From positions 1 through 64,000 of the IMG/VR virus record IMGVR_UViG_3300029908_000017: a DNA stretch of 64,000 nt. One strand, 5' to 3'. Within the stretch, counting starts at the first letter, position 1, and every line of letters starts with the position of its first letter. Positions 1 through 46,915 of the stretch are shown piece by piece. The notes under the pieces were generated by a model. That model did no database searches and was not told where the DNA came from. It was given only the letters and a program-made list of their open reading frames with translations. The stretch comes from a virus. Position numbers and translations under genes: made by a program.

Positions 1-572
1 ACATAATTATAAGCTGTTACTTGGCTATTTCCCCAAGCTGTTACTTGGCTATTTTCCCAAGCTGTTACTTGGCTATTTTCCCAAGCTGTTACTTGGCTAT
101 TTTCCCTAGCTGTTACTTGGCTATTTCCCCAAGCTGTTACTTGGCTATTTCCCCAAGCTGTTACTTGGCTATTTCCCCAAGCTGTTACTTGGCTATTTCC
201 CCAAGCTGTTACTTGGCTATTTTCCCTAGCTGTTACTTGGCTATTTCCCCAAGCTGTTACTTGGCTATTTTCCCTAGCTGTTACTTGGCTATTTTCCCTA
301 GCTGTTACTTGGCTATTTTCCCAAGCTGTTACTTGGCTATTTCCCCTAGCTGTTACTTGGCTATTTTCCCTAGCTGTTACTTGGCTATTTTCCCTAGCTG
401 TTACTTGGCTATTTCCCCTAGCTGTTACTTGGCTATTTTCCCTAGCTGTTACTTGGCTATTTTTAGGAATACGGCTTACTTCAATAAACCCCTTTAAATA
501 AATATATGTAAATGTTGTATATTCAACAGGTAAAGCATCAAACTCCGATTGTGTCTTGATTTCAATTTCCAT
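1..572 (-). CDS. 8-residue-repeat (solenoid-like) protein, 3' end cut by window edge
   Basis: The minus strand reads from an ATG at 570-572 without a stop to the window edge (190 codons seen). The first 36 or so residues (start MEIEIKTQSEFDALPVEY) form a non-repeated head. It is followed by 19 copies of the octapeptide NSQVTA[RW][EG]. The last visible residues (TAYNYV) show the repeat starting to change, as expected before a C-terminal cap beyond the window. Short repeats of this [ED]N-[SA]-x-V-x-A type are known in phage and Bacteroidetes proteins and are thought to form beta-solenoids; function is unknown. The opposite strand is also open through the repeat, but only because the unit is a multiple of three; it lacks a head domain and an ATG. 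A weak promoter candidate lies at 691-727. Confidence 0.8.
   Translation of the reverse strand, partial: MEIEIKTQSEFDALPVEYTTFTYIYLKGFIEVSRIPKNSQVTARENSQVTARGNSQVTARENSQVTARENSQVTARGNSQVTAWENSQVTARENSQVTARENSQVTAWGNSQVTARENSQVTAWGNSQVTAWGNSQVTAWGNSQVTAWGNSQVTARENSQVTAWENSQVTAWENSQVTAWGNSQVTAYNY
11..464. repeat. 24-bp tandem repeat, 19 copies
   Basis: Units begin every 24 bases from position 11 to 443 with no spacers. Variation is confined to two places: aag/tag at the unit start and a C/T in the T-C run. Both change a residue in the minus-strand reading (Trp/Arg and Gly/Glu). Near-perfect identity suggests recent expansion. It is coding repeat DNA, not a CRISPR array, and I see no sign of iterons bound by an initiator. 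Confidence 0.95.
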
Positions 573-2382: not shown

Positions 2383-2634
2383 TTATTTTATCACTGCAAT
2401 GTAATTTTCATCATCCACAGCATATACTTTCATTCCTTGAAATTCTAACCGGTTATCTCCAGTACCTGGAAACGGTTCTTCTGGAAAATACATTATCGAG
2501 GAAGGCACTACTTCTCTTAATATAGTTAATTGTAATTGCCCTAATAAAAGTTTTTTAGGGCGTTCATTAGCATGATGAACTTTATACTGTTGAGTTTCAA
2601 AACAAACCGAAAAATTTAAGTCAGCAAATTGCAT
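2383..2634 (-). CDS. Hypothetical small protein, first gene after a C-tract promoter
   Basis: 83 aa, no family recognised; the C-terminal half looks beta-rich. The ATG at 2634 lies about 12 bases after a strong dyad (2646-2675) that follows the promoter element at 2676-2712. It is therefore the first gene of the leftward transcript. Confidence 0.65.
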   Translation of the reverse strand: MQFADLNFSVCFETQQYKVHHANERPKKLLLGQLQLTILREVVPSSIMYFPEEPFPGTGDNRLEFQGMKVYAVDDENYIAVIK

Positions 2635-2645
2635 AATTTTCTTAT

Positions 2646-2675
2646 ATATTACAAACGTTAAATCGTTCGTAATAT
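2646..2675 (-). promoter_or_regulatory. Dyad at the predicted transcript start
   Basis: Positions 2664-2675 pair with 2646-2657 over 12 bases (one G-T), with a 6-base loop. It begins immediately after the TATAAT. It could be a 5' stabilising hairpin or an operator overlapping the start site. Confidence 0.5.
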
Positions 2676-2712
2676 ATTATACCAAAAATTAGGCTTTATA
2701 CTGGGAGGGGGT
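2676..2712 (-). promoter_or_regulatory. C-tract/TATARTA promoter element, copy 1
   Basis: Minus strand: ACCCCCTCCC (2703-2712), 21 bases, TATAAT (2676-2681). The same elements with identical spacing occur at 12455, 59276, 60836 and 61908. TATAAT resembles a sigma70 -10 box. The C-tract takes the place of a -35 box, as an activator-dependent phage promoter would have. Confidence 0.7.
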
Positions 2713-2723
2713 ATGCCTAATTT
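2686..2723 (-). terminator. Inverted repeat ending the 2717 gene
   Basis: AAATTAGGC (2715-2723 on the minus strand) pairs with GCCTAATTT (2686-2694) and runs into T residues. It overlaps the stop codon of the 2717 gene. Its loop contains the promoter C-tract, so termination of one unit and initiation of the next overlap physically. Confidence 0.5.
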
Positions 2724-3100
2724 ATATCTTCTGTAACATAAGTTGTTGTAACAGAAGAAGTTATAACAACTTTTTGAATCTTAGGAAGCAATAATTTCGT
2801 TACCATACTCTGTGCTTCAGGAGCTTTCAAAAAAGCTTGGGCGATAGCTGAATCTTGAAATGACAATGCTTGGCTAATTTGAGCGGTGGTGCCCTGAGGA
2901 GATAAATAATACTCGTTGTCATTGATTACATAACAAGTATTTTTAAACTTTTTCTTTTCTTTAAATGCAGGTTTTTTAATTTTTATCTCACTTGCTTTAT
3001 CAACATGAAAAGTTTTATTTTGTTGTGCAATAGTCGCTTTATCAATGGTAGACAATTCTTCAGGTTGATAATCCGGTAGTTCAATAGCTTCGTTGTTCAT
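2717..3100 (-). CDS. Hypothetical protein
   Basis: 127 aa. A Lys-rich middle (KIKKPAFKEKKKFK, about residues 40-54) is followed by a more hydrophobic C-terminal half. No known motif. It follows the metallophosphoesterase gene by three bases and ends in an inverted repeat, so it is probably the last gene of that operon. Confidence 0.6.
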   Translation of the reverse strand: MNNEAIELPDYQPEELSTIDKATIAQQNKTFHVDKASEIKIKKPAFKEKKKFKNTCYVINDNEYYLSPQGTTAQISQALSFQDSAIAQAFLKAPEAQSMVTKLLLPKIQKVVITSSVTTTYVTEDIN

Positions 3101-3103
3101 AAT

Positions 3104-4408
3104 TTATAGATTAAAATAGTACTGTGCTTCTAGCCCTTTGTCAAAGTGATATAAAAACGCTTTTGCGCCTCGTGTTTGGCCTACATAACCCTTTGAAGCA
3201 TGCCAAGAGTCTGCCGAACATAAGGAGGGAAGGGTGCGAATTTTTACACCCATAATCTCATCATCTAACTCTGCATGTAAATGACCGGTATGCCATTCTT
3301 TATACGTGGTAGCAGCCCATTCATCCTTTTGCTCAGTAGCCATTAATAAGGGTAGATTTTTTTTAATTTCTTTATCGCCGTGAGTAAATCCTAACAATGT
3401 TTGTCCGTACCTATAATATTTACGCAGAGTAGGTGAATTATTAATTGAAACATTTGGATGGCCTTTAAAGAAAGCAGCTAAATATTCCCCTAAATAAAAC
3501 GATCTCTCCATATCGTGATTACCTACACAAATAACAACATCGACAGGTATTTCAATAGCCAGTCCTGCAATAGTTTCTTGAATTACTTTACAACCTTTTC
3601 GAAATGTATTTTGCCAGCGGCTATCTTCTACTTGTGGAGTTCCTGCTGTTGTCGATTCATCCGAACCATCGGAATTGAATAAATCATTACCAATTGGTAA
3701 TAATATTCTTTCCACTAAATTAATTGGTGCTTTTTCAATTAAATCACCAACCGCATATTTAAATAATCGCACTGCTTCATTGGAATCGTAGTTTTCTCCA
3801 CCTGTTTCTTCTCCCCAGCTTAATTTACCAATATGTAGATCAGCGATATTGATTTCCAAACAATACTTTTTTTCAGGGTTAGCTGGAATTTCATCAAGTT
3901 CATTCCACTTCAGAGTATTGATATTTGAATTTAACTCATTTTTAAAATACTCCAATAGTTCTTTTGTTGTATCAATTGCTTTGATGCGTTCCAACTTTAC
4001 AGCTACTCGAAATAATTCTTTGACGTTGGCTTTTCCACTATCTTTTGCAATACCTTCTACTCTACCATTTTTATAAACAAGGTCTTTATTCACATCTTTT
4101 CGTGCCATGTCCCATTTTGTTACTTCGTATGTTTTTACACGCCAGATGGTTAGATCCACTTTTGCCGCAATTAATAATTCTTCCAATGTGCGAATTGAAC
4201 CAGACGATTGCAGCAGTCCTTCAGTATCATTGGATTTAAACTCGATTTTGCTATCTGTTTTTTCTGGAGTGGAACGTAATGGTGAAATGATTTCTGATGC
4301 TTCTGTGTTAGTAAACCCGTTATTTAATAAGGATTGAAAAATATTTCGTTTATTTTTTCGAGCTTTTGTAATAATTACCAGTCCTTCGTTTATGCGTTCT
4401 TGAGTCAT
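3104..4408 (-). CDS. Calcineurin-like metallophosphoesterase
   Basis: 434 aa. The C-terminal two thirds carry the full metal-binding set of the family in order: DLHIGK (D-x-H), GNDLF (G-N-D), VGNHDMER (G-N-H-D), THGD and HTGHLH (G-H-x-H). This predicts a two-metal phosphodiesterase or nuclease. The N-terminal part has a segment VDLTIWRVKTYEV of a type seen in other phage nucleic-acid proteins. It is separate from the SbcD-like nuclease at 41267. The substrate is unknown; a DNA role is inferred. Confidence 0.85.
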   Translation of the reverse strand: MTQERINEGLVIITKARKNKRNIFQSLLNNGFTNTEASEIISPLRSTPEKTDSKIEFKSNDTEGLLQSSGSIRTLEELLIAAKVDLTIWRVKTYEVTKWDMARKDVNKDLVYKNGRVEGIAKDSGKANVKELFRVAVKLERIKAIDTTKELLEYFKNELNSNINTLKWNELDEIPANPEKKYCLEINIADLHIGKLSWGEETGGENYDSNEAVRLFKYAVGDLIEKAPINLVERILLPIGNDLFNSDGSDESTTAGTPQVEDSRWQNTFRKGCKVIQETIAGLAIEIPVDVVICVGNHDMERSFYLGEYLAAFFKGHPNVSINNSPTLRKYYRYGQTLLGFTHGDKEIKKNLPLLMATEQKDEWAATTYKEWHTGHLHAELDDEIMGVKIRTLPSLCSADSWHASKGYVGQTRGAKAFLYHFDKGLEAQYYFNL

Positions 4409-4440
4409 ATTTGATTTTATTGTATATGCCGACAGAAAAT

Positions 4441-4698
4441 TTACGATTCGAAGTATATAATATCGTAGTTAAAACCTTGATTATCAGTTACTTCAACCTT
4501 AAAAAATTTTTTAAACTTATTTTTGTATTTATATACCAACAACTTACATAAGTAGTTGGGAAACAATAATTTAAAATAATACAAGTTAAAAAGAATATTT
4601 TTAACAAAAATTTCTGAAAATTTTACTGATTCTTTTTCTGTAAGCCATTTGGATTTGTGAATCACAGTGTACATTACGAAGGAATCATCGTTTGTCAA
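4441..4698 (-). CDS. Hypothetical basic, aromatic-rich protein
   Basis: 85 aa, rich in Lys, Phe and Tyr. A central hydrophobic stretch (ILFNLYYFKLLFPNYL) could be a buried or membrane-associated helix. No family recognised. It lies two bases after the 4700 gene. Confidence 0.5.
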   Translation of the reverse strand: MTNDDSFVMYTVIHKSKWLTEKESVKFSEIFVKNILFNLYYFKLLFPNYLCKLLVYKYKNKFKKFFKVEVTDNQGFNYDIIYFES

Positions 4699-4699
4699 A

Positions 4700-5518
4700 T
4701 TAAACTACGATACTTAGAATCAATATTACAGATGTTGTACCCGTCGCGCCACCTGGATTAGAGGGAGAAACATAGTCACTAGGCCAAGGAGTATTTCCAA
4801 AGAGATTAGTGTTCCAAAAAATACCTGTATCTGTAAACAGTACAGTTTTATCATCTAGAATTACACCATTCTTTTCAATGTATGCCAAATTCAATTTCGG
4901 TACAGCTGCTGGATAAATCAATGGTAAATTTGGATCGGTAGCAATATTATATTTAAAGTAGTAGCCTGCAGGATCTGCTCCAGAAGTAGGAAGCCATCCC
5001 CTTTCTGATGTGTTTGGACTAGGAATGGTAATCATTCCACCAGTATTAACAGGAATACCGCATGGTAACGCAAAAAGAGGAAGACGATAAAGAGTATTGC
5101 TAACATATGTGTTCACATTGATATCTCCTGAAGTAATGCTATAAACTGATCCTTGCGCCAAATTCTGTATTAACTCAAAATCGGTTACGAGACTTTGAAT
5201 TTCTTGCAAAATAGTATCCAGCACACTATTTAGATACTCTACTGTGTTGGCGACTAAACAAACCTGATAGTCTAAAAAGTATGAAGTATCGGAAGTGGGT
5301 ACTCCTTGTCCAAGTGTTTCCAGTTGATTGGGTGTGCCTACAGCTGCAAAAATATCGGTTACACCTCCATTAATATTTCTAGTTCTTTGTTTGACAAAGA
5401 TGTACTTAGTGATATTTTGAGCAGAAGTAATCTCCAACGTCATTTGATAGCTACTTAAGTTTGGTATATAAACCGTCGCTGATTGTAGCAAGGTTACTTG
5501 CGCAGATTGAATAGCCAT
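4700..5518 (-). CDS. Probable virion protein, unknown
   Basis: 272 aa from ATG 5516-5518 (MAIQSAQVTLLQ); an upstream in-frame start would overlap the divergent gene at 5539, so I reject it. The composition is typical of phage fibre or baseplate proteins (Ser, Thr, Asn, Gly, Pro rich, few charged residues). It ends in a hydrophobic tail (SVILILSIVV). It stands alone opposite the portal region. The virion role is inferred. Confidence 0.55.
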   Translation of the reverse strand: MAIQSAQVTLLQSATVYIPNLSSYQMTLEITSAQNITKYIFVKQRTRNINGGVTDIFAAVGTPNQLETLGQGVPTSDTSYFLDYQVCLVANTVEYLNSVLDTILQEIQSLVTDFELIQNLAQGSVYSITSGDINVNTYVSNTLYRLPLFALPCGIPVNTGGMITIPSPNTSERGWLPTSGADPAGYYFKYNIATDPNLPLIYPAAVPKLNLAYIEKNGVILDDKTVLFTDTGIFWNTNLFGNTPWPSDYVSPSNPGGATGTTSVILILSIVV

Positions 5519-5538
5519 TGAAAAAAGGATAACCGATA

Positions 5539-5835
5539 ATGAATGAAGAAGCAAGACCAGAGGTAAACGAACAAATTGAATTAATTACAACCAAATTACA
5601 AAAAGCTTTAGATGGGTTTGTTTTTAATTATGATTCTGGTAATTCGTTAAAATTATTAAGGGAAAAAGTGAGTTACGAGTTGGAGACACACGGTTATTGT
5701 GGGTTTCCTGTTATTTCTTATGAACTACGCGAAATTGATAAAGATTTATTAGAAGGTCATGTGATTATCGAATTACCTAAATTAGTTCAACTCAACTTTT
5801 TTTGTAATGAAAGTGGTTGCACAGTTGTAAAATAA
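5539..5835 (+). CDS. Hypothetical protein, head-region operon
   Basis: 98 aa, acidic, no family recognised. The ATG is preceded by AAAAGGATAA, a good ribosome binding site for this genome. It is the first gene of the rightward operon that contains the portal and starts 20 bases from the divergent 5518 start. Confidence 0.65.
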   Translation: MNEEARPEVNEQIELITTKLQKALDGFVFNYDSGNSLKLLREKVSYELETHGYCGFPVISYELREIDKDLLEGHVIIELPKLVQLNFFCNESGCTVVK

Positions 5836-5853
5836 CCCGTATATTGTTCGACC

Positions 5854-6585
5854 ATGGATGTATATGATAATTTAAAAGATGGTGAGGGGGCAGGTACATT
5901 GATTGTGGGACGTTACAATAAAGAAGGTAAAGTCCAACAGAAATCCACATTTTCAGGCTCACCCGAAGATCTTGCCGATCTAGCGGAAAAATATAAAAAC
6001 TCCATGTCTGTTGCACGGGCTGAATTTCTTCCTTCATTAGCTAAGATACCATTTTCATTATCATCAAATACTCCCAAACCCAAGATACAAAAAAAACGTG
6101 GTCCTAAACCTAAAATAAAAGTAGTACAAGAAATACAACCACCTACTAATGTAGCAAAAGTTAATCCTAATAAGGTTTTTGATTTAGATACAAACGATTA
6201 CTTTAACGAAGATTCTACAAAAACAACGGGTACTATTAATTTTGAAGAACCCGAAGAATATGGGCATAATGAAGAACCCTCTACAGCACAACAGATTACA
6301 CAAAAGCGAATTGCATTCCAAAATCAATTTGGAAAGATATTCACAGAAGTAGAGGATGTAATTTATCAGGAAAATGGATTTTCTATCATGTTGGTGTACA
6401 CTAATATCAATAAATTAACATTTATTCCAAAAGAAGGTGAGACTTTAGAATTCTCAGAAGATCAAAGAACGTTTAAAAATGTGTTTTTTCCAGGGACGAT
6501 ATTCGACTACCATGGTAAAATTATAATGATATTATATGTTGAAGTTGATAATATTGAAGAAACGGAGAATACTGATAATGAATAA
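5854..6585 (+). CDS. Hypothetical protein with AT-hook-like basic stretch
   Basis: 243 aa. KKRGPKPKIK near residues 83-92 resembles an AT-hook DNA-binding motif. The middle is acidic and low in complexity; the C-terminal 80 residues look folded (beta-rich). It lies directly upstream of the portal gene, so a packaging or head-assembly role is possible but unproven. Confidence 0.6.
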   Translation: MDVYDNLKDGEGAGTLIVGRYNKEGKVQQKSTFSGSPEDLADLAEKYKNSMSVARAEFLPSLAKIPFSLSSNTPKPKIQKKRGPKPKIKVVQEIQPPTNVAKVNPNKVFDLDTNDYFNEDSTKTTGTINFEEPEEYGHNEEPSTAQQITQKRIAFQNQFGKIFTEVEDVIYQENGFSIMLVYTNINKLTFIPKEGETLEFSEDQRTFKNVFFPGTIFDYHGKIIMILYVEVDNIEETENTDNE

Positions 6586-6730
6586 ATTTGGAAATATAAC
6601 AGAAGAAACAAGATCGGACTTTGATTCTACAAAGAAAGTAGAATTTATTGATAAGGAAGGTTTTGAAGTAGCAGATAAAAAAAATAAGAATAAGTTGAAG
6701 AATCCTGTAGCCATCAAAGAAACTAAATAA
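6578..6730 (+). CDS. Hypothetical small charged protein
   Basis: 50 aa (start MNKFGNITEETRSDF), highly charged and probably helical or disordered. Its ATG overlaps the stop of the 5854 gene and its stop is two bases before the portal ATG, so it is translated within the operon. Confidence 0.6.
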   Translation: MNKFGNITEETRSDFDSTKKVEFIDKEGFEVADKKNKNKLKNPVAIKETK

Positions 6731-8995: not shown

Positions 8996-9733
8996 ATGAA
9001 GCCTTTTACACCTTTACACTTAATTTCTACTATTTGTCTTTCGTTATTTTTAATGTCATGTTCAGCATCATTTATTGAAAAACAATCGGAAACAGCCGAT
9101 CAAGGTATTTATGCAATTCCTGCGGCTATTGACGCAGGACGAATTGATCAAGCAGATACTATTTCTAACGATTTAAAGACGCTTTATCCTACCCCCAAAA
9201 ATCCTTTGAACATTAAACCAATCGTTGATCCCTTAACAGGAATAAATGATATAATCTTACCTTCGAGGTTGATTGGTAAAGTCATTGTTATAGGATCTCC
9301 TGCTTATAAGGATTTAATAAAAAATAAAACAATCAACGATCAATTAGTCATAGAAAATAAAAATTTAACGGACTATAAGACAGAAGCAGAAAAACAAAAA
9401 ATTGCTGATCAACAAGCATTGAACCAATTGTTAATCGCTTATAATAAAGACGAAGATTCTTTAAAAGAATGGAAAGCCTCAATTTTTTATAAAGCTTATG
9501 AACTTTACCAGTTTATAGGAGTATTATTGACATCTTTATGGGTGGTAATTCCACTGGGTATTGTTGGTGCAATTGTACTTTGTGTATTTTGTCCTGCGGT
9601 AGCTCCAGTTATACTTTCTGCAGCAGGTACAGTCGTAGGTTTTATAATTCGTGTTGCATTAAATCTAATCAATAGTATATTTTCAATATCGACCAAGTTA
9701 TTAACCCCAACAACCCCCACAACTAAAAGCTAA
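8996..9733 (+). CDS. Lipoprotein with C-terminal membrane segments; u-spanin candidate
   Basis: 245 aa. A signal peptide ends in lipobox L-M-S-C (Cys22), predicting a lipid anchor. The middle is a periplasmic, charged, coiled-coil-prone stretch (about residues 100-160). The C-terminus holds hydrophobic segments around 171-230. An N-terminal lipid anchor plus C-terminal inner-membrane segments is the layout of unimolecular spanins such as T1 gp11, which fuse the two membranes at lysis. It lies first in a cassette with a holin-like protein and a lysozyme. Two or more C-terminal segments, not one, is atypical. Confidence 0.6.
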   Translation: MKPFTPLHLISTICLSLFLMSCSASFIEKQSETADQGIYAIPAAIDAGRIDQADTISNDLKTLYPTPKNPLNIKPIVDPLTGINDIILPSRLIGKVIVIGSPAYKDLIKNKTINDQLVIENKNLTDYKTEAEKQKIADQQALNQLLIAYNKDEDSLKEWKASIFYKAYELYQFIGVLLTSLWVVIPLGIVGAIVLCVFCPAVAPVILSAAGTVVGFIIRVALNLINSIFSISTKLLTPTTPTTKS

Positions 9734-9734
9734 T

Positions 9735-10133
9735 ATGTCTACATCCTCAACCTTTATTGAAGCAATCAAAACACAACTGTCAAAAATTAAAACTACAGTT
9801 GAAGCAGACTTGAAGCCAATCGCTTCGCACATTGAAACAGCCGTAGAAAATGAAATCAAGGTAATTGAAAAAGATATTATCTATGATGCAGATAAAGCTA
9901 TCCTTAACGTGGAATCGGAAATCACTAAATTGAAGTCCCTGGCTACTGCAAAGTTAGAGGCTCTTGTAAAAAATAATGCCACAATCACATCACTTCAGGC
10001 ACTAGGGGCTACTCTCGAAGCAGACGCTAAGAAAGCGGCTGATTTTGCAGAAAAATTGCTGAATGTTACTACTGCCGTAAAACCCGTTACAACAACTCCG
10101 GTTGTTTCATCTATAACTACCCCAACTACGTAA
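9735..10133 (+). CDS. Hypothetical helical protein in the lysis cassette
   Basis: 132 aa, almost wholly amphipathic helix (Ala, Lys, Glu, Ile rich), with a Thr/Pro-rich tail. No signal peptide or membrane segment is seen. It starts one base after the spanin-like gene. It might be a lysis regulator or a structural coiled coil; nothing decides this. Confidence 0.6.
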   Translation: MSTSSTFIEAIKTQLSKIKTTVEADLKPIASHIETAVENEIKVIEKDIIYDADKAILNVESEITKLKSLATAKLEALVKNNATITSLQALGATLEADAKKAADFAEKLLNVTTAVKPVTTTPVVSSITTPTT

Positions 10134-15220: not shown

Positions 15221-15400
15221 TTATTCTTTATATCTCCCATGTTTTACACTGGGATTTAATTCGATGAAGATATTTTTTAAATCTTCTTTTTTAATTTTTT
15301 CCAATTCAATAATTAGATTTTCAGGATGACTGCTATAATTCTTTATAGCTTTGTCCATCAATCTTCTGGCTTTTTCGCTTGGCTTATATCTATGACTCAC
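15221..15400 (-). CDS. Hypothetical small basic protein (GTG start)
   Basis: 59 aa read from GTG at 15398-15400, which overlaps the recombinase stop (GTGA). Start MSHRYKPSEKARRLMDKA; Lys/Glu-rich helices follow. The stop lies three bases before the 15217 ATG. The exact fit between two genes supports it. Confidence 0.6.
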   Translation of the reverse strand: MSHRYKPSEKARRLMDKAIKNYSSHPENLIIELEKIKKEDLKNIFIELNPSVKHGRYKE

Positions 15401-16599
15401 AACGTTTTTGGCTCTGAAACTTTTTTCTTTCGTTTCTTTTTATTTTCATTCTCCACTTTTACTACTTCCTCATAAGATGGCAATGGAGGTACATGATAGG
15501 CTTCTCGAATCAATTCCTTGGCTTGTTCACTATTAGCAATAATTGTAGCCATATCTCTTACCAAGTAAGATTGTTCTATATTAATCACTTCTTCTTGTTG
15601 GGAGTTAGGATTAAGGAACTTAGTATTCGGAATATTCCAACGATAATAACCGCCTGCTTTGGTCATTAACTTTTCGTAGTTTTTCCCCAAATCTTCTACA
15701 CAAGATTCAAACCATGTATACCCTCCCTGTACTCTAGAGTCTACTTGAATAAATTGATTATTCCCCTCAATACCTAACTTATTTCGTTTACAAGTAATCT
15801 TATGGCTTGATCCTACTTTTATCTTAACCTTATCATGCTCTGGGTCTACTTCGAGAATATCTCCTGTTCGCGCAAACTTTAATTGGTAAGTAGAGTGGAA
15901 TCTAGGTGCCCTGCCACCAATCATGGCTTCAGGTTTTTCTTCACCAAATCCTCCAAACGAACCAATCTGCTCTCTTAACTGATTAATAGTTAATACAATA
16001 CACTTTTCATGCGATAAAGGATTAGTAATTTTCCGATAAAACTCTGATAATAGTTTTGCGTGATTACCAGGCTTTGTTTCACCAATAATATTTTGATCAG
16101 ACTCATACTCCGTCATCGTTCCTGCAATGGAATCCAGACAAATTAAAACAGGTGTTTCACCCTCCGGAAAAGCCTTTGGCAAATTAAGAATGATACCTTC
16201 AATCGATGTTAAAGCTTCTTCCAAAGTTTGAGGATGACTTAATTTTACTTCATCGATATTTAAGCCCTGCTGAAAAGCATAAACCTTGCTTGCTGCATTC
16301 TCTGTCTCTAACCAAAAAACAAGTCCTCCAGCTTTTTGGAACCGCTTTGCCATGTCATAGAAGAAGCTAGTTTTACCATCAGCTTTATTTCCATAAATAA
16401 GATAGCAACGACCATAAATCAAAAATCGACTAGATAATAGCTTTTCCAACAATGGACAATCCAGTAGCAATCCAGTTGGGTCTAATTCATCTTTTCCGTC
16501 AATAAACTCAGTCTCTGAGTCCTTAAAAGCTTTTTTAAAATCCTTTTGTACTAATGTTAATAGCTTATCAATCTGTTCTTTTTTCTTATCGTCGCTCAT
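15397..16599 (-). CDS. uvsX: RecA/UvsX-family recombinase
   Basis: 400 aa. Walker A GNKADGKTS (residues 70-78), a glutamate-bearing segment WLETENA after beta-2, Walker B PVLICLDSIAG (about residue 150), and TINQLREQIGSFGG as the DNA-binding loop region. This matches ATP-dependent strand-exchange proteins of the RecA/RadA/UvsX type. It is expected to coat ssDNA and drive recombination-dependent replication with the gp46/47, UvsW and SSB proteins of this window. The C-terminal 30 residues are Lys-rich. The symbol is by analogy with T4. Confidence 0.85.
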   Translation of the reverse strand: MSDDKKKEQIDKLLTLVQKDFKKAFKDSETEFIDGKDELDPTGLLLDCPLLEKLLSSRFLIYGRCYLIYGNKADGKTSFFYDMAKRFQKAGGLVFWLETENAASKVYAFQQGLNIDEVKLSHPQTLEEALTSIEGIILNLPKAFPEGETPVLICLDSIAGTMTEYESDQNIIGETKPGNHAKLLSEFYRKITNPLSHEKCIVLTINQLREQIGSFGGFGEEKPEAMIGGRAPRFHSTYQLKFARTGDILEVDPEHDKVKIKVGSSHKITCKRNKLGIEGNNQFIQVDSRVQGGYTWFESCVEDLGKNYEKLMTKAGGYYRWNIPNTKFLNPNSQQEEVINIEQSYLVRDMATIIANSEQAKELIREAYHVPPLPSYEEVVKVENENKKKRKKKVSEPKTL

Positions 16600-16842: not shown

Positions 16843-17931
16843 TTATTTCTTAGCTTCTAGAAAAGCACGAAGATCATCCTTATTGACGACCTTTCCACCG
16901 ACAATAACCTCATTGGTTGCTGCTGGTGTTACTGAAATCACCGATGCTACAGGCGCGGGCGGGACAGGAGGATTGAATGCTATTGCTGGGGCTACTGTTG
17001 GAGAAGCCGCAGGAGGTGCAGGAATAGTATAGGCTCCTGTATTTGTTGGTGTGGAGGCAGGTAAAGGCAGGGGTACACTTACAGTAGGCGCAGGAGGTGT
17101 AGGCAATGGATTAGTTGGAAAAGCTGCCACTGTTTTAAATCCTGCATAACCCTCCATACAAATATCGAAAACATTAGCTGGAAACATCTGGCGTAAGTCT
17201 CCAATAATTTCTTCTTTCATCTTTATCACAAATATTTCGTCGAGATTATAAAGATTTTCCGACAATGCGTATTGTTCGGGAATTACATATTTATAAGCAA
17301 TATTTGGAGAAATCTGCCATCCCCCATCCTTACCTACATCTGAATTTAACTTTAGAAATGTTCCAATCGCTGCGTTTACATCATTAAGCAACGGACTTTG
17401 TGACCCATCAGGTTGGGGTTGGTCCATCCATTTCGTTAATTGATCTGCACCTTTGTAAGCAGGTAAGTCCAATACATGGATTACCTCTTTTAAAGGTGCA
17501 GCGGCCTGCAACAACTTTAAAGGAGCTACATTAAAAGCAACTCGTTGTGTTACATGTCCGTAATTTGGATAAATAGTAAACTTTGTTGAATTATTTCCTT
17601 CTCCAGGTTTGACAGGTTTTGCTTGCTCTGGATACCTTGCACGAAACGCTCGTTCAAAATAACTAGCAGGATCGTCATTTAAATTATGTACATAATAATT
17701 TTTCTTCGCCTTGTCCAGACCAAACGCCTTACGAACAGAAAATGACTTGAACCATACTCCTTCTCCATTGCTATCGGCTTTGTAAGCAGGTAAAAATAAC
17801 ACGTACAGTCCTTCACGGTTATTGTCCTTATCAAATACTAGTTGTTTAACATCTGTGCGAATATAATTGAATAACGATGCTTGATCGATATTCGATCCTT
17901 CAAATTTTCGGCTTCCTTGTATAATTGGCAT
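16843..17931 (-). CDS. Possible single-stranded DNA-binding protein
   Basis: 362 aa. The N-terminal 260 residues look folded (YVLFLPAYKADSNGEGVW, then FSVRKAFGL); the next 85 are a Pro/Ala/Val/Thr linker and the last 20 a short charged helix (KVVNKDDLRAFLEAKK). A folded core, a long flexible linker and a C-terminal interaction tip, next to the recombinase, is the layout of replication SSBs. The CxxC zinc site of T4 gp32 is not seen. The call rests mainly on context. Confidence 0.4.
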   Translation of the reverse strand: MPIIQGSRKFEGSNIDQASLFNYIRTDVKQLVFDKDNNREGLYVLFLPAYKADSNGEGVWFKSFSVRKAFGLDKAKKNYYVHNLNDDPASYFERAFRARYPEQAKPVKPGEGNNSTKFTIYPNYGHVTQRVAFNVAPLKLLQAAAPLKEVIHVLDLPAYKGADQLTKWMDQPQPDGSQSPLLNDVNAAIGTFLKLNSDVGKDGGWQISPNIAYKYVIPEQYALSENLYNLDEIFVIKMKEEIIGDLRQMFPANVFDICMEGYAGFKTVAAFPTNPLPTPPAPTVSVPLPLPASTPTNTGAYTIPAPPAASPTVAPAIAFNPPVPPAPVASVISVTPAATNEVIVGGKVVNKDDLRAFLEAKK

Positions 17932-17938
17932 ATTTTAT

Positions 17939-18220
17939 TTATTGATTGGCTTCAAAAAGATTCTGAAACCATATATATTTTGGGTTTATTTTTTTACGTA
18001 TGTTTAATGACTCAGCTACTTTAAAATAATTATCGTATTCAATACTTAATTTTTTTAGTGTTTTTAATTTTGGTGATTTTTTAACTTTTTCGAATGAAAC
18101 ACGGTTAATATCCCATTCTTCATAGTGTAAGTCAACCTTTGAGAAAATCTTTTTTAAAGTTTTATCCAACAAAGCTTCTACGGCTCTTACATTATGCTTT
18201 GATAGATTTTTTATGTTCAC
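17939..18220 (-). CDS. Hypothetical basic protein after the E1-like gene
   Basis: 93 aa, Lys-rich helices, ending WFQNLFEANQ. It overlaps the E1-like gene by four bases (ATGA), so it is co-translated with it. It could be a partner of that enzyme, but no motif shows this. Confidence 0.6.
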   Translation of the reverse strand: MNIKNLSKHNVRAVEALLDKTLKKIFSKVDLHYEEWDINRVSFEKVKKSPKLKTLKKLSIEYDNYFKVAESLNIRKKINPKYIWFQNLFEANQ

Positions 18221-18825
18221 AAATGAAAGACCTTTTCCTTCGTAACAAGATTTCCTCTTACGGCCTGTAAAAACACTTGAACCATTGCAGCACCCACAAT
18301 GACAGGCATAGCATGCGAAATATTATTTTGTTTTTCATAATCAAGCAGACAACTTCCTCGTTCTGTTGAATCATCCAAATAAGAATTTCGAATGTCTGCT
18401 GGTACCTTGGAGTTGAAAATCAATCCTAGATTGGAACTACTTCGTCCATCAATCCAAAATAACTCAGGATGACTATCACCATATTCATAAAGTTTTTTAC
18501 GAATTTCCATACCATCGGGACCACTAAGGATTACATCATAATTCTTGAAATCTTTCTTTTCCATGAACCTGTCAATTGCAGTAATGGCGTACTTGTCTTC
18601 CATCACTTTGACTTTCTTTTTACCGAGATCTTCGAATTTATAATTTTGGTGCAATAAATTCTTGTCCGTAACTGACGCTTCATCGAAAACTGTGATTTCA
18701 GTATTCAAATAATCGAATTGCTTGCGATTATAACCAAAGTCATAAAGAAAATGAATGACCCATCCTGAAACACCACCCGCCCCAATAATACCGATTCTTT
18801 TATAATTCAATTTTTCAATGCTCAT
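18217..18825 (-). CDS. E1/ThiF/MoeB-like adenylyltransferase
   Basis: 202 aa. A Rossmann start IGIIGAGGVSGW (residues 11-22), an acidic end of beta-2 (TVFDEASV), NLLHQNY (56-62) where the family has NLxRQ, LGKKKVKV (67-74, the family GxxKV) and ILSGPDG (99-105). These are the ATP and acyl-adenylate elements of ubiquitin-activating-type enzymes. Cys159 (ERGSCLLDY) is placed where a catalytic thiol could be. The family adenylates the C-terminal Gly of ubiquitin-like proteins. It is short for the family, and the usual Arg is His59. It overlaps the JAMM gene by 11 bases. Substrate candidate: the protein at 22270. Confidence 0.8.
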   Translation of the reverse strand: MSIEKLNYKRIGIIGAGGVSGWVIHFLYDFGYNRKQFDYLNTEITVFDEASVTDKNLLHQNYKFEDLGKKKVKVMEDKYAITAIDRFMEKKDFKNYDVILSGPDGMEIRKKLYEYGDSHPELFWIDGRSSSNLGLIFNSKVPADIRNSYLDDSTERGSCLLDYEKQNNISHAMPVIVGAAMVQVFLQAVRGNLVTKEKVFHL

Positions 18826-19270
18826 TTTTTCTCCAGATTACTTCACTTTGAATTGTATCGTTGTCTAACCAAGTATATTTAATTATTTCTCCGTACTTAA
18901 TACTCTTAATATAATTGTATTTAAAATTCTGAAATAAATTTGCATAGTCAATTCCAGAATACCTAGCAGAGAATGATGGGTGTGTATGGAATGAACCGAA
19001 TAATTGCCAACCTCTACTAAGAAATGGTCCTACTAATTTGGCGAATTCATTATCATTTGGCTCATATAAAGCGTGTCCAATACTTTGGTTATGAAACTTA
19101 TTAGGAATTCTCACAAAGGCAAACACGTCGTCATCGTCAACTTTACCTTTAACGAGTAGTCCACCTGCTTCGTATTCCAAATCATTAAAGTCCGTTAAAT
19201 TAATAATTGTTGTGTCAGGGCTGTCCCACACGTCCATAACATGAGGTAATTTGTTAAATTGTGAGATCAT
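18815..19270 (-). CDS. JAB/JAMM (MPN) metalloisopeptidase
   Basis: 151 aa. The full zinc motif H-x-H-x7-S-x2-D is present: His95, His97, Ser105 and Asp108 in SFHTHPSFSARYSGID, with Glu34 (YEAGGLLVKG) as the likely general base. JAMM enzymes cut isopeptide or C-terminal peptide bonds of ubiquitin-like proteins, or process their tails before activation. Overlaps on both sides (17 and 11 bases) tie it to the 19254 and E1-like genes. The domain stands alone, without the NlpC/P60 part seen in tail-assembly homologs. Confidence 0.88.
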   Translation of the reverse strand: MISQFNKLPHVMDVWDSPDTTIINLTDFNDLEYEAGGLLVKGKVDDDDVFAFVRIPNKFHNQSIGHALYEPNDNEFAKLVGPFLSRGWQLFGSFHTHPSFSARYSGIDYANLFQNFKYNYIKSIKYGEIIKYTWLDNDTIQSEVIWRKNEH

Positions 19271-19823
19271 GTATTATTGCAACGATGTTAGCATCAATAA
19301 AATCAGATTCAATATTGTTTGGTACTTTGATGTCGAAGTATTTTTCCAAATTTTCTAATAGAATATTTTTACCCAAATTATTAAAGCTGGTCTTATCGTT
19401 GAATAATACTTCTTCAAACTGAATTATTCTTTTCAACTGATATTTTATCGATAACAACTGTAGTCGAAGATTGTATTTATCAACATTATGCCAAATCAGT
19501 TTAGTAATATTGTGCTCATTTATTTTACTCAACAATTCTACATAAACACGTTCCTCATTATCATCAGTGATTGAAATGCGAGACCATGTAAGTAGTCCGG
19601 TTCTTTGATCAATAATTTTTACAAAGCCTTTTACACCCTTCAACTTGGTTGTAAATGTATGGTTGCCCACGTCGGCCAACCATTTTTCTTCTTTGTCTTT
19701 GATGTCTTTTTCTTTTTTAATTGGATCAGTAAGCCTACCATCGGCTTTAAAGTCAGGTATCCATTTTAACAATTCTTCCCCTTGAAGGGGAGTAAACTCT
19801 AATTTTATAGCAGCTATACTCAT
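19254..19823 (-). CDS. Hypothetical protein of the E1/JAMM operon
   Basis: 189 aa, no recognised fold. It contains no cysteine, so it cannot be a thioester-forming E2. The N-terminal 60 residues are Lys/Glu rich and the rest alternates helix and strand, ending DANIVAIIHDL. It overlaps the JAMM gene by 17 bases and lies two bases after the 19826 gene. It could be a scaffold, adaptor or target. Confidence 0.6.
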   Translation of the reverse strand: MSIAAIKLEFTPLQGEELLKWIPDFKADGRLTDPIKKEKDIKDKEEKWLADVGNHTFTTKLKGVKGFVKIIDQRTGLLTWSRISITDDNEERVYVELLSKINEHNITKLIWHNVDKYNLRLQLLSIKYQLKRIIQFEEVLFNDKTSFNNLGKNILLENLEKYFDIKVPNNIESDFIDANIVAIIHDLTI

Positions 19824-19825
19824 AA

Positions 19826-20032
19826 TTAATCTAATTCAGTTGTTTTTTCGTATCCTCGAAGAATTGCAGTCTGTACATAATAATCGTAAAATCTGACAGT
19901 CTGATCCTCATATAATTGGTCTGCCACATCTAATGCATCATCTTCATTTCGCCACGCTTCTTTGACTATAATTTCACCCTCACTATCTTCTTGCAGCACC
20001 AGATAAATATATGTTTCGTTATTTATACTCAT
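19826..20032 (-). CDS. Hypothetical small acidic protein
   Basis: 68 aa with strand-helix-strand look (YIYLVLQED, AWRNEDDALDVADQL, VRFYDYYVQ). No Gly-Gly tail. It overlaps the 20029 gene end by four bases (ATGA). Confidence 0.6.
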   Translation of the reverse strand: MSINNETYIYLVLQEDSEGEIIVKEAWRNEDDALDVADQLYEDQTVRFYDYYVQTAILRGYEKTTELD

Positions 20033-22218
20033 GCAACGGCTACCTCTTGAATTTCTGGAATATTAGCAACTTCTTGTGCGATATCTTTTAATTCTTGATC
20101 AAGATTATCATTGATAACCGGTTCATTTGTATCTTCTACATCAACAGTTTCAAAATCCTGGTCAATAGGAGTTTCTTTGACATAATGCTTTAGGGTATAA
20201 ATTTCGTCAACCAATACCGAGTCATTATGCAACGCATACAATCTAGCCGCGAGATCATCATAACCTACACCTGTATCATGGCTTGAATTGACAATGCAAA
20301 TATAACCCTGGCTAGCTTCGTCAAATACTTTGCAATTTTCTTTATTCACAATATAGGTTGTCAGCTTGCCTTTGATACGGTAAAACTCTTTACCATCTTT
20401 TTTGATCAACTCCGCGCCTGTAGCTTCTACAGCCATTTTTAAGAATTCTTTAGATTTCTCAACCGCTAATGCGTGCTTTAAGTCTAAATAATCAACAACC
20501 GCAATAAGATCAAAATCTGTCAAATGCTCGGTAACTACTTCTTTTTCGATTTCAACCCCATCAGCATTCTTTTCTTTAACAATCTTCTTAAAGGTAGACG
20601 CTTCTTTTAGAATTGGCTTTAATTTGCTTCTTGCCCATTTATCTGTTTTTGTCTCTCCGTTACACCAATTAGCATTTGCCGATTTATTTAAAGCATATAC
20701 TTTTTTGATTAAATAATTTAATCTAACAGGTACTGTCTTCTCGATATTATCAATAGAGTTAATAACAAGATGTGGCTTTCTATCCACAATTCTAAAGAAC
20801 AATTTAGTGCATTCAGGATGAGGTAAGGGATCTGCCCAACTACCAACATAATCCTTGTCAATTTTTACACCTAGTCCTGCACTAATTGCATCCGTGGCCT
20901 TTAAATTCAAGACTGAAGTTTGTTTAAGGAAATTTGTGTAATTCAACTCGTCTTGAAAACACGAACAACGATAAATAACTTCTTCTAACTCATTGGCATT
21001 GATACGAATACCATTGATCTTACGATGACCGCTTGCCAAGTGCTTAGTCAACGTTAATGTAATTCCATTAATCTTGAACGACTCCAATGTAATTACACCA
21101 TCCGTATACGCGGATTCGTCAGCAATTTCAAAAGTCTTAGGTACATTCACTTCTTCTTGGACCCTCGCGCTTCTCCTCCATCCATATCCGTACTTACGAA
21201 TTTTCTTAATCTGCCGTACTTCTTTCTTTAATCCCGCACTCTCAAGTTCAGCCGCTTTGGCTTTCGCAATTTCACGGACAACTGAATAGATATCAAATTG
21301 ATTATGAATATCATAAACACCCATAAATATTTCAAATAGCTTAGGATATTCGAGAGTAACAGTATGATAAACAGCCGAATTAGCTGTGAACTTAATATTG
21401 TTAAACTCACCAGATTCCACTTCACCAGACGCTAGTTTATTAGCATAGACTAATGTAGTATTAGCATTGTATTCTCCTTCAAGGACAGCTAACCGAGTTT
21501 TCCAAATAGTTTTCTGGTCTTTTGTCAGTCCCTTCTCCATCTTTAAGCGATACAATACACTCTTTTCAGGATTAATAAAGAATCCATGATCCAACATATC
21601 TACGAATCTTGAATTAAATCGTAGAAGATGAAAAACTAATAGAATTTCATAAGTAAAAACATTTGCAACGGCGTATTTACTAATCAATTTATTTTTCTCA
21701 TGATACTGGTATACCTGAAAAAGATTATATTGATCGAGATAATCATATACTTTGTCCATGTGTGAGGCCATGAACTTGATAAACCTTCGACCATTTACAA
21801 TACGATAAGTTGTACCATTTACAATTTTTTCGATAGGTGCCTGCATGATAACCAATGGCCCATCACTATCATCAACAGATTGTCGAGTGTAATATTTTGA
21901 ATTTGTGATCTTATCACGAATTGCTCCATAACTACTATCAGTTACTAACTCATAATTATCGTTGCAAAAAGAATCCTCAAAATCATTGTCAGGCCAATTT
22001 GAGGTACCGCGAATTGCTTGATAATTTAATTTAAACAACGAATGTAGCGTAGGTAAATTTTCTATATAAAAATCCTGTACTTTAAAATAGAAATTAATAT
22101 CCTTGTTCTGTTCTTCCCAAGCCAATTCAAAATCTATTTTAACCTTCTTTAACTTTAATAATAGATTTTTTAATTTTACCAAATATTGTTTATTTAACTG
22201 CGAGTGATAAAATGCCAT
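20029..22218 (-). CDS. Large protein of unknown function (729 aa)
   Basis: 729 aa, no motif recognised. A helical, Lys-rich start is followed by a long mixed region; KIRKYGYGWRRSARVQ near residue 345 is a strongly basic patch. The last 50 residues are acidic (Asp, Glu), ending IPEIQEVAVA. It is one of the largest genes in the leftward run and sits between the Gly-Gly-tail protein and the JAMM/E1 genes. An intrinsic terminator hairpin lies directly before its ATG, so its expression is probably set by read-through. Confidence 0.7.
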   Translation of the reverse strand: MAFYHSQLNKQYLVKLKNLLLKLKKVKIDFELAWEEQNKDINFYFKVQDFYIENLPTLHSLFKLNYQAIRGTSNWPDNDFEDSFCNDNYELVTDSSYGAIRDKITNSKYYTRQSVDDSDGPLVIMQAPIEKIVNGTTYRIVNGRRFIKFMASHMDKVYDYLDQYNLFQVYQYHEKNKLISKYAVANVFTYEILLVFHLLRFNSRFVDMLDHGFFINPEKSVLYRLKMEKGLTKDQKTIWKTRLAVLEGEYNANTTLVYANKLASGEVESGEFNNIKFTANSAVYHTVTLEYPKLFEIFMGVYDIHNQFDIYSVVREIAKAKAAELESAGLKKEVRQIKKIRKYGYGWRRSARVQEEVNVPKTFEIADESAYTDGVITLESFKINGITLTLTKHLASGHRKINGIRINANELEEVIYRCSCFQDELNYTNFLKQTSVLNLKATDAISAGLGVKIDKDYVGSWADPLPHPECTKLFFRIVDRKPHLVINSIDNIEKTVPVRLNYLIKKVYALNKSANANWCNGETKTDKWARSKLKPILKEASTFKKIVKEKNADGVEIEKEVVTEHLTDFDLIAVVDYLDLKHALAVEKSKEFLKMAVEATGAELIKKDGKEFYRIKGKLTTYIVNKENCKVFDEASQGYICIVNSSHDTGVGYDDLAARLYALHNDSVLVDEIYTLKHYVKETPIDQDFETVDVEDTNEPVINDNLDQELKDIAQEVANIPEIQEVAVA

Positions 22219-22250
22219 AAAAAAGCCCGTTGGTGTTTAATCCAACGGGC
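22219..22250 (-). terminator. Intrinsic terminator abutting the next start codon
   Basis: GCCCGTTGG pairs perfectly with CCAACGGGC around an 8-base loop, followed on the minus strand by TTTTTT and at once by the ATG of the 20029 gene (22216-22218). It should cut transcription after the 22270 gene. Its position also hides the start region of the 20029 gene in the hairpin foot. Confidence 0.85.
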
Positions 22251-22269
22251 ATCTCCGTTTATTGATTAA

Positions 22270-22623
22270 TTAACCACCGATGACTCGTCCAACGATTTGT
22301 ACAGGAGGAGTAATGAATTTACCTGGAAAGGCAATATCTACTTTTGTCAGAGAAGACAGCAAATCACGTAACCGTAACTTATCGCTTTCAATAATCTTGT
22401 TATCGTCATCCGTACCATTAAACTTAGCAGATGTCTTAAAGATTCCATCGTTAATCACAGCCCAAAGCTTGTTGGTCTGGAAATGACTAAAGATACGTTC
22501 AACGGCTCCTTCTAAGTTTAGTTTAAAAGTTTCATGTCCGGCTTTACCAGTAACATGCAAATCGTAAACAGGTGCGTTCAAATCTAAAGCTACTTCTGCA
22601 ATTGTATTTTTGATTTCTTCCAT
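22270..22623 (-). CDS. Small protein with C-terminal Gly-Gly; ubiquitin-like modifier candidate
   Basis: 117 aa ending PVQIVGRVIGG. A bare Gly-Gly C-terminus is the activation site of ubiquitin, ThiS, MoaD and archaeal SAMPs, and no other protein in this window ends that way. The body has strand-like segments (YDLHVTG, TFKLNL, LWAVIND, VDIAFPG) compatible with, but not proof of, a beta-grasp fold; it is longer than typical modifiers. It lies upstream of the JAMM and E1-like genes in the same leftward run, with a terminator after it that should make it more abundant than they are. Confidence 0.6.
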   Translation of the reverse strand: MEEIKNTIAEVALDLNAPVYDLHVTGKAGHETFKLNLEGAVERIFSHFQTNKLWAVINDGIFKTSAKFNGTDDDNKIIESDKLRLRDLLSSLTKVDIAFPGKFITPPVQIVGRVIGG

Positions 22624-22625
22624 AA

Positions 22626-23144
22626 TTAAACAGTTTGGGCTACCTCGTGATCTTCGTTGATAGCCAAAGAGAATCCAGACAAATCCTCGCTAGCGTTATT
22701 TAGATTCAATCTTGAATTAAACGTAATTTTTGCACCGGATTTCTGCAGAATCTTTACCAACGAGGCAAGAAAGAAACGAGGATGAGTAAGCTGCTTTACT
22801 CGTACTTCTGCCTTTACCTCGTAACCCTCGCTAATATTAACTACTAGCTCTTTGGGAGCTTCTACAGGTTGATTATCAACGACTACTTGAATTGGCTGTT
22901 TTGAATTTGCCTTTGTTTTAGTAGCAGTACCTTTCTTTGATTTTGCAGTTGTTGGTTTTGCAGTTGTAGTAGATTTAACAACATTCTTATCCGCTCCCTC
23001 TACTTCAAGGGTAGCCCAATTCTTGGAAATATTATTCGCATAAGTTGAGGAATAACCTTTCTTGATCAAATACGCAGACACACCTTTCTTCTGCCGCTTG
23101 ATCTTCAATAATTCGTCGTAAAGTGCTTTTTTAATTTTAGCCAT
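22626..23144 (-). CDS. Hypothetical protein with small N-terminal helical domain
   Basis: 172 aa in three parts. Residues 1-45 form a basic helical domain (KIKKALYDELLKIKRQKKG, AYLIKKGYSS) closely resembling the whole 23151 protein. Residues 55-90 are a Thr/Lys linker. Residues 95-172 are a folded C-terminal domain (LVVNISEGYEVKAEVRVKQL). The linker suggests the N-terminal part binds DNA or a partner. Two bases separate it from the 22270 gene. Confidence 0.6.
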   Translation of the reverse strand: MAKIKKALYDELLKIKRQKKGVSAYLIKKGYSSTYANNISKNWATLEVEGADKNVVKSTTTAKPTTAKSKKGTATKTKANSKQPIQVVVDNQPVEAPKELVVNISEGYEVKAEVRVKQLTHPRFFLASLVKILQKSGAKITFNSRLNLNNASEDLSGFSLAINEDHEVAQTV

Positions 23145-45342: not shown

Positions 45343-46908
45343 TTATTTAACCTCAATTAATTCACCTTTGTTATTCAATGTATACCAAGTATTAGCTTTA
45401 ATACCATCTTCTCCTGCATAACCGACAACTATACGATTACGGTTACCGTCATCCCAAACCAAAGATAAGCAACCATTTTCTCCGACTTTTGTTTTTCCAT
45501 ACAATCCTGCCACAACTGCAATAGTATCTTTACCAACAGCTGCTGCTGTGCTGTAATATCCTGAACTCGCTGCTTTGCTGGAATTACCTGAACTCTCTGC
45601 TTTGCTGTAATCTCCTGAACTCGCTGCTGTGCTGTAATCTCCTGAACTCGCTGCTGTGCTGGAATCTCCTGAACTCGCTGCTTTGCTGTAATCTCCTGAA
45701 CTCGCTGCTGTGCTGTAATCTCCTGAACTCGCTGCTTTGCTGGAATTACCTGAACTCACTGCTGTGCTGGAATCTCCTGAACTCGCTGCTTTGCTGGAAT
45801 CTCCTGAACTCGCTGTTTTGCTGTAATATCCTGAACTCACTGCTTTGCTGGAATATCCTGAACTCGCTGCTTTGCTGTAATCTCCTGAACTCGCTGTTTT
45901 GCTGGAATTACCTGAACTCACTGCTTTGCTGTAATCTCCTGAACTCGCTGCTGTGCTGGAATTACCTGAACTCGCTGCTTTGCTGTAATCTCCTGAACTC
46001 GCTGCTGTGCTGTAATATCCTGAACTCGCTGCTTTGCTGTAATCTCCTGAACTCGCTGTTTTGCTGGAATCTCCTGAACTCGCTGCTGTGCTGGAATTAC
46101 CTGAACTCACTGCTTTGCTGTAATCTCCTGAACTCGCTGCTGTGCTGGAATTACCTGAACTCGCTGCTTTGCTGTAATCTCCTGAACTCGCTGCTTTGCT
46201 GTAATCTCCTGAACTCGCTGCTTTGCTGTAATCTCCTGAACTCGCTGCTGTGCTGGAATCTCCTGAACTCGCTGCTGTGCTGGAATCTCCTGAACTCGCT
46301 GTTTTGCTGGAATCTCCTGAACTCGCTGCTGTGCTGGAATTACCTGAACTCACTGCTTTGCTGTAATCTCCTGAACTCGCTGCTTTGCTGTAATCTCCTG
46401 AACTCGCTGCTGTGCTGTAATATCCTGAACTCGCTGCTTTGCTGTAATCTCCTGAACTCGCTGTTTTGCTGGAATCAAGTTTTTTAACTTTTAAAATTAA
46501 ATCGTTAACCTGTTTATCAATTTTTGTTTTATTGCAAAACAAGCGAGCAATTAATTCTGGTGTTGCGTCGTTTAATTCCCAAACTTTATTCAATACATCT
46601 GAATACTGTGGTTCGGAAAAATAATCTAAGGCTACCTCCTTACCCTTTAAAGCGTTCATTAAACTTGTATAATGTGACGTAATGGAAGAAACTTGGTGTT
46701 GTGTTAATGTAGAAATATCATCGTTCTTAACAACATTTTCCAAAACGAAATCACCAATCCCATTCCATTCGCATTCAACAAATCTTTTTTGTTTATGAAC
46801 ACTATCGTTTTCTGTCCATTTAAACAATTCAACAGCCTTACTATGGCTATTACCAGGTTCATGGGCTATAACTCCATCACGTCTAACAACAATACTATGA
46901 AAATCACA
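45343..46908 (-). CDS. DUF7666-type nonapeptide-repeat protein
   Basis: 521 aa from ATG 46906-46908 (MCDFHSIVVRRDGVIAH); an earlier start is unlikely. N-terminal domain to about residue 145, then 34 nonapeptides ASSG[DNY][YS]S[KT]A, then a cap of about 75 residues (KTKVGENGCLSLVWDDGN). A cap domain plus YS-A repeats is typical of a phage and bacterial family with a DUF7666 domain. The repeats probably form a beta-solenoid. Function unknown. Second solenoid gene in the window. Confidence 0.78.
   Translation of the reverse strand, partial: CDFHSIVVRRDGVIAHEPGNSHSKAVELFKWTENDSVHKQKRFVECEWNGIGDFVLENVVKNDDISTLTQHQVSSITSHYTSLMNALKGKEVALDYFSEPQYSDVLNKVWELNDATPELIARLFCNKTKIDKQVNDLILKVKKLDSSKTASSGDYSKAASSGYYSTAASSGDYSKAASSGDYSKAVSSGNSSTAASSGDSSKTASSGDSSTAASSGDSSTAASSGDYSKAASSGDYSKAASSGDYSKAASSGNSSTAASSGDYSKAVSSGNSSTAASSGDSSKTASSGDYSKAASSGYYSTAASSGDYSKAASSGNSSTAASSGDYSKAVSSGNSSKTASSGDYSKAASSGYSSKAVSSGYYSKTASSGDSSKAASSGDSSTAVSSGNSSKAASSGDYSTAASSGDYSKAASSGDSSTAASSGDYSTAASSGDYSKAESSGNSSKAASSGYYSTAAAVGKDTIAVVAGLYGKTKVGENGCLSLVWDDGNRNRIVVGYAGEDGIKANTWYTLNNKGELIEVK
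45550..46478. repeat. 27-bp coding tandem repeat, 34 copies
   Basis: The core CTGAACT recurs every 27 bases from 45561 to 46452. Units differ by a few fixed alternatives (TAATCTC, GGAATTA, TAATATC), giving Asp/Asn/Tyr and Tyr/Ser choices. Longer blocks of units recur, indicating expansion by segmental duplication. Confidence 0.95.
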
Positions 46909-46915
46909 CATAATT

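Follow-up and report, generated by a model that had tools for sequence, protein, structure and literature searches.

A conserved phage cassette of an E1-like enzyme, a JAMM metallopeptidase and a Gly-Gly-ending protein: a probable reversible ubiquitin-like conjugation system

Conjugation of ubiquitin-like (Ubl) proteins in prokaryotes has so far been known from archaea and from anti-phage defence. Archaeal sampylation (UbaA, SAMP1-3 and HvJAMM1) is a reversible lysine modification for which only an E1-like enzyme is named (PMC4443979), while the Caldiarchaeum ubiquitin operon specifies a pro-ubiquitin with a short extension, its maturation by JAMM (an archaeal JAMM removes a 9-residue extension from pro-ubiquitin) and then E1 activation, in a cascade that has an E2 and a RING E3 (PMC5654768). 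The Bil and type II CBASS Cap2/Cap3 systems also contain an E1, a JAB protein and a conjugated protein (PMC11354881, PMC10097602); BilD, the Bil E1, has two adenylation domains and acts with the E2 BilB, and in CBASS a CD-NTase is conjugated via the E1-E2 protein Cap2. The plasmid PRTRC genes (A, B/Prok-E2_D, C/Prok_Ub, E, F and ThiF) may be compared with the operon types with JAB, E1, E2 and small Ub proteins of Iyer et al. 2006 (PMC1779556), and in phages lambda and T1 the tail proteins I (a Ubl with a C-terminal Gly) and K (a JAB protein) are encoded side by side (PMC1779556).

The cassette described here lies in a 64,000-base window, which is the first part (bases 1-64000) of a virus record of 74,376 bases. 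It shares the parts list of sampylation, an E1, a Gly-Gly Ubl and a JAMM, and by analogy would work most like the archaeal SAMP/UbaA/JAMM1 system, but it is viral, its E1 is not a UbaA equivalog and it has a dedicated partner of ~700 amino acids (aa). Unlike the Caldiarchaeum cascade it has no detected E2 or RING E3, its 202-aa single-domain E1 without an E2 match sets it apart from Bil, and neither a CD-NTase nor an E1-E2 protein was found among the operon proteins scanned, in contrast to CBASS. It resembles PRTRC in E1 subfamily (below) and in having, likewise on a mobile replicon, an analogous succession of genes (small protein, Ub, large protein, ..., JAB, E1); however, the cassette contains no detectable PRTRC-C Ub and no Prok-E2_D, PRTRC-A match or ParB, and its Ubl ends in an invariant Gly-Gly with precursor-like extensions. 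The lambda and T1 genes differ in having no E1, in being tail assembly genes, and in family and location. In its components the cassette is neither Bil, CBASS nor PRTRC. The part of the literature that we searched contains no description of a phage-encoded Ubl conjugation system.

Gene order, genome context and relatives

The record that contains the window encodes a terminase, a DNA polymerase (whose first residues, as we read them, would resemble a uracil-DNA glycosylase), helicase- and primase-like proteins and RecA, and the cassette sits within the leftward replication block of the window (Table 1). The Ubl, E1 and JAMM genes are all on the minus strand where the preliminary description of this DNA had placed them, and two of its identifications (an E1/ThiF protein and a JAB protein with a complete motif) were borne out by Pfam and by intact motifs; the third, a 117-aa protein, does end in RVIGG. 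It had also described one leftward run of mostly overlapping genes; the direction holds and four overlaps are real (F/68 aa, exonuclease/JAMM, JAMM/E1 and E1/93 aa), but a terminator-like hairpin followed by a T run (GCCCGTTGG-ATTAAACA-CCAACGGGC-TTTTTT, read leftward) splits the Ubl from the 729-aa gene. Nine terminator-like sites occur in the region, where 5.0 ± 1.9 are expected, and among 25 relatives a simple scan finds hairpins of like form with a T run in this position in 19, different in sequence and in a few cases weak. With a strong hairpin between them, the Ubl and the enzymes probably do not simply share one transcript in equal amounts, and a terminator at this point would allow more modifier than enzyme to be produced.

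Table 1. The cassette and its neighbours in the window, in order of transcription
Feature	Position	Strand	Basis or remark
172-aa gene, upstream of Ubl	22626-23144		Leftward block
Ubl, 117-aa predicted beta-grasp-like modifier, ends in Gly116-Gly117	22270-22623	-	Gly-Gly conservation, AF2, Foldseek
Intrinsic-terminator-like hairpin, between Ubl and downstream enzymes	22225-22250	-	Between Ubl stop (22270) and 729-aa start (22218)
~700-aa conserved partner "F" (729 aa in window)	20029-22218	-	Order kept in relatives
68-aa ORF	19826-20032	-	No counterpart seen at this place in relatives
189-aa DnaQ/RNase-H-like protein, probably degenerate	19254-19823	-	Optional gene
JAMM/JAB metallopeptidase, predicted pro-Ubl processing and isopeptidase	18815-19270	-	Prok-JAB, motif
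E1-like adenylating enzyme	18217-18825	-	ThiF, PRTRC ThiF likeness, Cys159
93-aa small conserved protein, immediately after E1	17939-18220	-	Homologues in same slot
362-aa conserved neighbour, possibly ssDNA-binding	16843-17931	-	Same slot in relatives
RecA-like recombinase (context)	15397-16599	-	Pfam RecA 8.3e-27; conserved neighbour

Single-protein scans of IMG/VR with the E1, the 729-aa protein, the Ubl and RecA found no relatives; a terminase scan gave 35 related virus contigs. An E1 about 47–50% identical to that of the window is present in 11 of the 27 records searched and the ~700-aa protein in 12 of 26; homologues of the 117-aa protein occupy the same slot in twelve. A scan with a profile of the phage E1 family then found 30 loci, including contigs new to the set and four more divergent ones (L125–L128); an alignment mixing PRTRC and phage E1s diverged too much to serve as a scan profile. 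About 30 virus contigs share the order Ubl, ~700-aa protein, (exonuclease-like protein), JAMM, E1, with the SSB-like and RecA genes following, and keep it wherever the contig covers it. The Gly-Gly modifier, E1 and JAMM, which the preliminary description had placed in one operon, form one conserved unit. Every searched contig of at least 70 kb in the group with ≥48% terminase identity has the cassette, including one that ends inside it. The same E1 profile has no match in 84,980 bacterial and archaeal genomes (GTDB), and by this test the E1 lineage is viral only.

The 362-aa protein is 38–44% identical in 10 relatives; one homologue gave no Pfam match, and gene context is what makes it possibly an SSB. 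Other features were seen around the cassette. A GP88-family protein (Pfam 1.2e-29; 3037-3780 in relative L091) lies upstream of the Ubl gene in most relatives, and none was seen between the polymerase and Ubl genes in the window. The window also has a 529-aa protein at 45343-46932, largely made of short AASSGDYSK-like repeats, and at the record's edge (21-497, plus strand) a tandem repeat whose open frame repeats SPSCYLAIFPSCYLAI over and over.

The Gly-Gly protein and its C-terminal extensions

The 117-aa protein has no family match in the libraries searched, Pfam Prok_Ub included, and is a divergent member of the phage family aligned here. The 26 distinct members of that family share only four invariant columns, and since two of these are the C-terminal Gly-Gly (26 of 26) its presence is not due to chance. 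What follows the Gly-Gly varies: among 27 distinct forms there is nothing in 4 (that of the window included), 1–9 unrelated residues in 21, and a fused domain in the other two, of 157 aa in L125 (2644-3375) and 75 aa in L126 (2922-3407). Comparison of one pair of relatives (L110 and L113) over the 84 mature codons shows 14 synonymous and no amino-acid changes, and a different first residue after the Gly-Gly. Such variation is what would be expected of a protein made as a precursor and then relieved of its tail, as ubiquitin and SUMO are. The two fused domains are homologous to each other (about 1e-5), and these fusions are natural candidate substrates for the JAMM; a search of the rest of the family for the domain as a separate protein gave no match.

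The AF2 model of the window protein has moderate confidence (pLDDT 69; below 50 for tail residues 114–117) and the order E19-26, E29-36, H37-51, E54-57, E60-62, H73-94, E108-111. A cleaner relative, L111, is modelled with the same beta-beta-alpha-beta-beta-alpha-beta order at pLDDT 82.4 and pTM 0.71. Foldseek matches in the PDB are mostly beta-grasp proteins (trypanosome Ubl, SUMO, ISG15, ubiquilin, SAMP1 and PB1), with Ubl, SUMO and ISG15 at the top, but the best E value is 0.013, TM values are 0.3–0.5, none is below 0.001 and no single match is significant; a beta-grasp fold is thus predicted from the consistency of the matches and not from one strong match. Neither a different fold with a buried C-terminus nor homologues lacking the Gly-Gly, which the preliminary description had named as outcomes that would count against a modifier, were seen: the model is beta-grasp with a loose tail. 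Other assignments did not hold. Five members match a binary-toxin domain in Pfam weakly and without significance (best 0.006), and profile comparison led us to reject a PRTRC-C/Prok_Ub protein (hhalign probability 0.1-0.2).

The enzymes and their possible partners

The E1 matches Pfam ThiF above the gathering score (2.8e-9) and consists of one ThiF domain with GAGGxxG, the conserved Asp and Lys and one Cys, C159; this cysteine (GCLL motif) is invariant, being present in every complete E1 of the relatives. The closest family is the PRTRC ThiF of plasmids, to which the E1 family is related at 1.1e-14 (TIGR03736) and, by hhalign, at 99.4% probability. PRTRC_ThiF is the best-matching curated family for the E1 of relative L088 although this scores 54.4 bits, and that of the window 24.7 bits, far under the 144.75-bit cut-off; ThiS-adenylyltransferase models match nearly as well. 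The UbaA equivalog NF047750 matches one of eight family members (best E 0.0027), short of assignment to that equivalog, and the E1 has His where ThiF-type enzymes carry Arg in the N-x-x-R-Q motif. Relative L096 (8654-10428; same contig as L121) has an E1 gene that is interrupted, some 48 codons from its start, by an insert of ~1.2 kb, which has no Rfam match and contains a 323-aa ORF (9033-10004) like LAGLIDADG homing endonucleases, suggesting an intron.

The JAMM protein matches Pfam Prok-JAB above the gathering score (1.7e-7) and, in the window, has no match to the PRTRC-A JAB family TIGR03735. Its motif is complete when read from the sequence (E34...H95-T-H97-P...S105-x2-D108), and is so in all 30 relative loci.

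The remaining cassette proteins gave no convincing match in family library searches. Protein F is 23–30% identical to its relatives over the alignment, with invariant Cys420 and Cys641 and, as its one family match, a weak one to DUF7737 around 610–647. Roles as transfer factor, adaptor or substrate are all conceivable; the last, raised in the preliminary description, gained no support from the evidence. The N-terminus of the 189-aa protein is homologous to ~200-aa proteins in the same slot of some relatives, one of which matches RNase_H_2 weakly; we rejected this gene as an E2, as its relatives look DnaQ/RNase-H-like and it has no PRTRC-B/E2_D likeness. Searches of eight records with Prok-E2_D and UBC-type E2 models found no match, though control genomes were likewise silent, which makes this negative a weak one; within that scope the preliminary description's remark that no cysteine-bearing E2 is seen holds. 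No recognisable E3 was found.

Proposed function and related phage modules

These genes, with their intact motifs, a conserved Gly-Gly followed by variable extensions, a predicted beta-grasp fold and linkage across a phage lineage, probably make up a phage-encoded system for reversible Ubl conjugation and deconjugation that may need no E2. We infer its catalysis, E2-independence, JAMM processing and target as follows. In most relatives the new Ubl would carry a short tail, which the JAMM would clip off after the Gly-Gly; in the phage of the window it would be made mature, without need of processing. The E1 would adenylate the Gly-Gly carboxylate, probably take up the Ubl as a thioester at C159, the one cysteine it has, and hand it on to target lysines. 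It would do this without help, in the manner of archaeal UbaA/SAMP modification, or via an unrecognised partner, for example the ~700-aa protein; the JAMM would reverse the modification. As the cassette lies among polymerase, SSB-like and RecA genes, its target may belong to the replication or recombination of phage DNA. Against conjugation are the shortness of the E1, its His in N-x-x-R-Q, the want of a recognisable E2 or E3, the divergence of the window's Ubl and its lack of a tail to process, the moderate confidence of its model and the low significance of each fold match.

The same parts could make a sulphur carrier, in which the E1-activated Gly-Gly protein becomes a thiocarboxylate, the sulphur source for a nucleotide, tRNA or cofactor, and the JAMM recycles the carrier, as in the CysO/Mec model. 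The E1 belongs to the ThiF/MoeB superfamily, with the near-equal ThiS-adenylyltransferase matches given above, and ThiS and MoaD are among the beta-grasp proteins that end in Gly-Gly. We nevertheless think this rather unlikely: rhodanese and TtuA/TilS-type ATP_bind_3 proteins were not found in the window's record and seven relatives (controls were positive), the neighbours are replication and recombination genes and not metabolic ones, and variable extensions and fusions after the Gly-Gly together with a dedicated JAMM suit a conjugated modifier better. That the ~700-aa protein and the E1 are instead bound non-covalently by a JAMM-matured Ubl, as a processing or scaffold module without conjugation, would accord with the failure to find an E2 or E3, with what lambda tail protein I may do and with the Ubl-JAMM pairs without E1 in lambdoid tail gene clusters (PMC1779556), but it is very improbable, as there would then be no need for an E1 that is conserved, has kept its nucleotide-binding motifs and has one invariant Cys.

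Bacterial Ubl-like conjugation acts against phages (for CBASS, PMC10097602), and the JAMM matches PADLOC JAB models (3.5e-5), so the cassette's JAMM and E1 might, helped by a decoy modifier, strip or poison a host Bil, CBASS Cap2/Cap3 or similar system. The preliminary description had offered action against a host system such as Bil or type II CBASS; the evidence lends this no support and we find it quite unlikely, given the cassette's presence in all the long contigs searched of its terminase group. Counter-defence genes are usually patchy. The cassette is embedded in a replication module in conserved order and its own Ubl is under strong constraint; because it is conserved lineage-wide inside a replication/recombination module and brings its own modifier, we argue for a core phage role.

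If the conjugation reading is true, phages own a complete set of modifier, activator and deconjugase, and viruses use for their own ends the same chemistry as archaea and anti-phage defence. The set is kept across a lineage beside replication genes, with precursor tails and fusions as in eukaryotes, and is compact enough for in vitro reconstitution. Only tentatively, and with rather more doubt than belief, would we go further and propose that the lineage's own E2-independent SUMO/ubiquitin-like reversible modification, with precursor processing, controls its replication/recombination machinery, and that related modules in crAss-like and other phages make this a widespread and overlooked phage strategy.

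Such modules were met when the L088 E1 was used as query, which found E1-like proteins in Salmonella phage Arash, Crassvirales (Kolpuevirus "frurule", which grows on Bacteroides cellulosilyticus, cr111_1 and cr85_1) and others. In Arash and these Crassvirales the gene adjacent to E1 has the JAMM motif HSHxxMxxFFSGxD, and in Acinetobacter phage ME3 the E1 lies beside a JAB-annotated protein (annotated PRTRC-A; JAMM motif not recognised). Their JAMMs are divergent and their neighbours different, however, and the Gly-Gly Ubl of the present family was not found in Crassvirales, Arash or ME3. Arash is closer to PRTRC than the window cassette is: its JAMM matches PRTRC_A at 1.8e-21, and the preceding gene matches Prok-E2_D weakly (0.024). 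Searched against a viral structure library, our Ubl model matched a 211-aa protein of cr111_1 (E 0.13), which by phage and length seems to be the product, also of 211 aa, of a gene two places upstream of the JAMM gene. Phage annotations of the "thiamine biosynthesis" and "metalloprotease" kind merit re-examination, including those in gut crAss-like phages, where a cultured host is available for at least one phage. The E1-JAMM modules of Arash (L130, 1519-4539) and the Crassvirales (L131–L133, about 2400-6700) are annotated as "structural protein", "thiamine biosynthesis protein" and "metalloprotease domain", and an upstream crAss protein of 371–426 aa has a conserved HSH...C-x-G-x-GPI pattern and could be E2-like.
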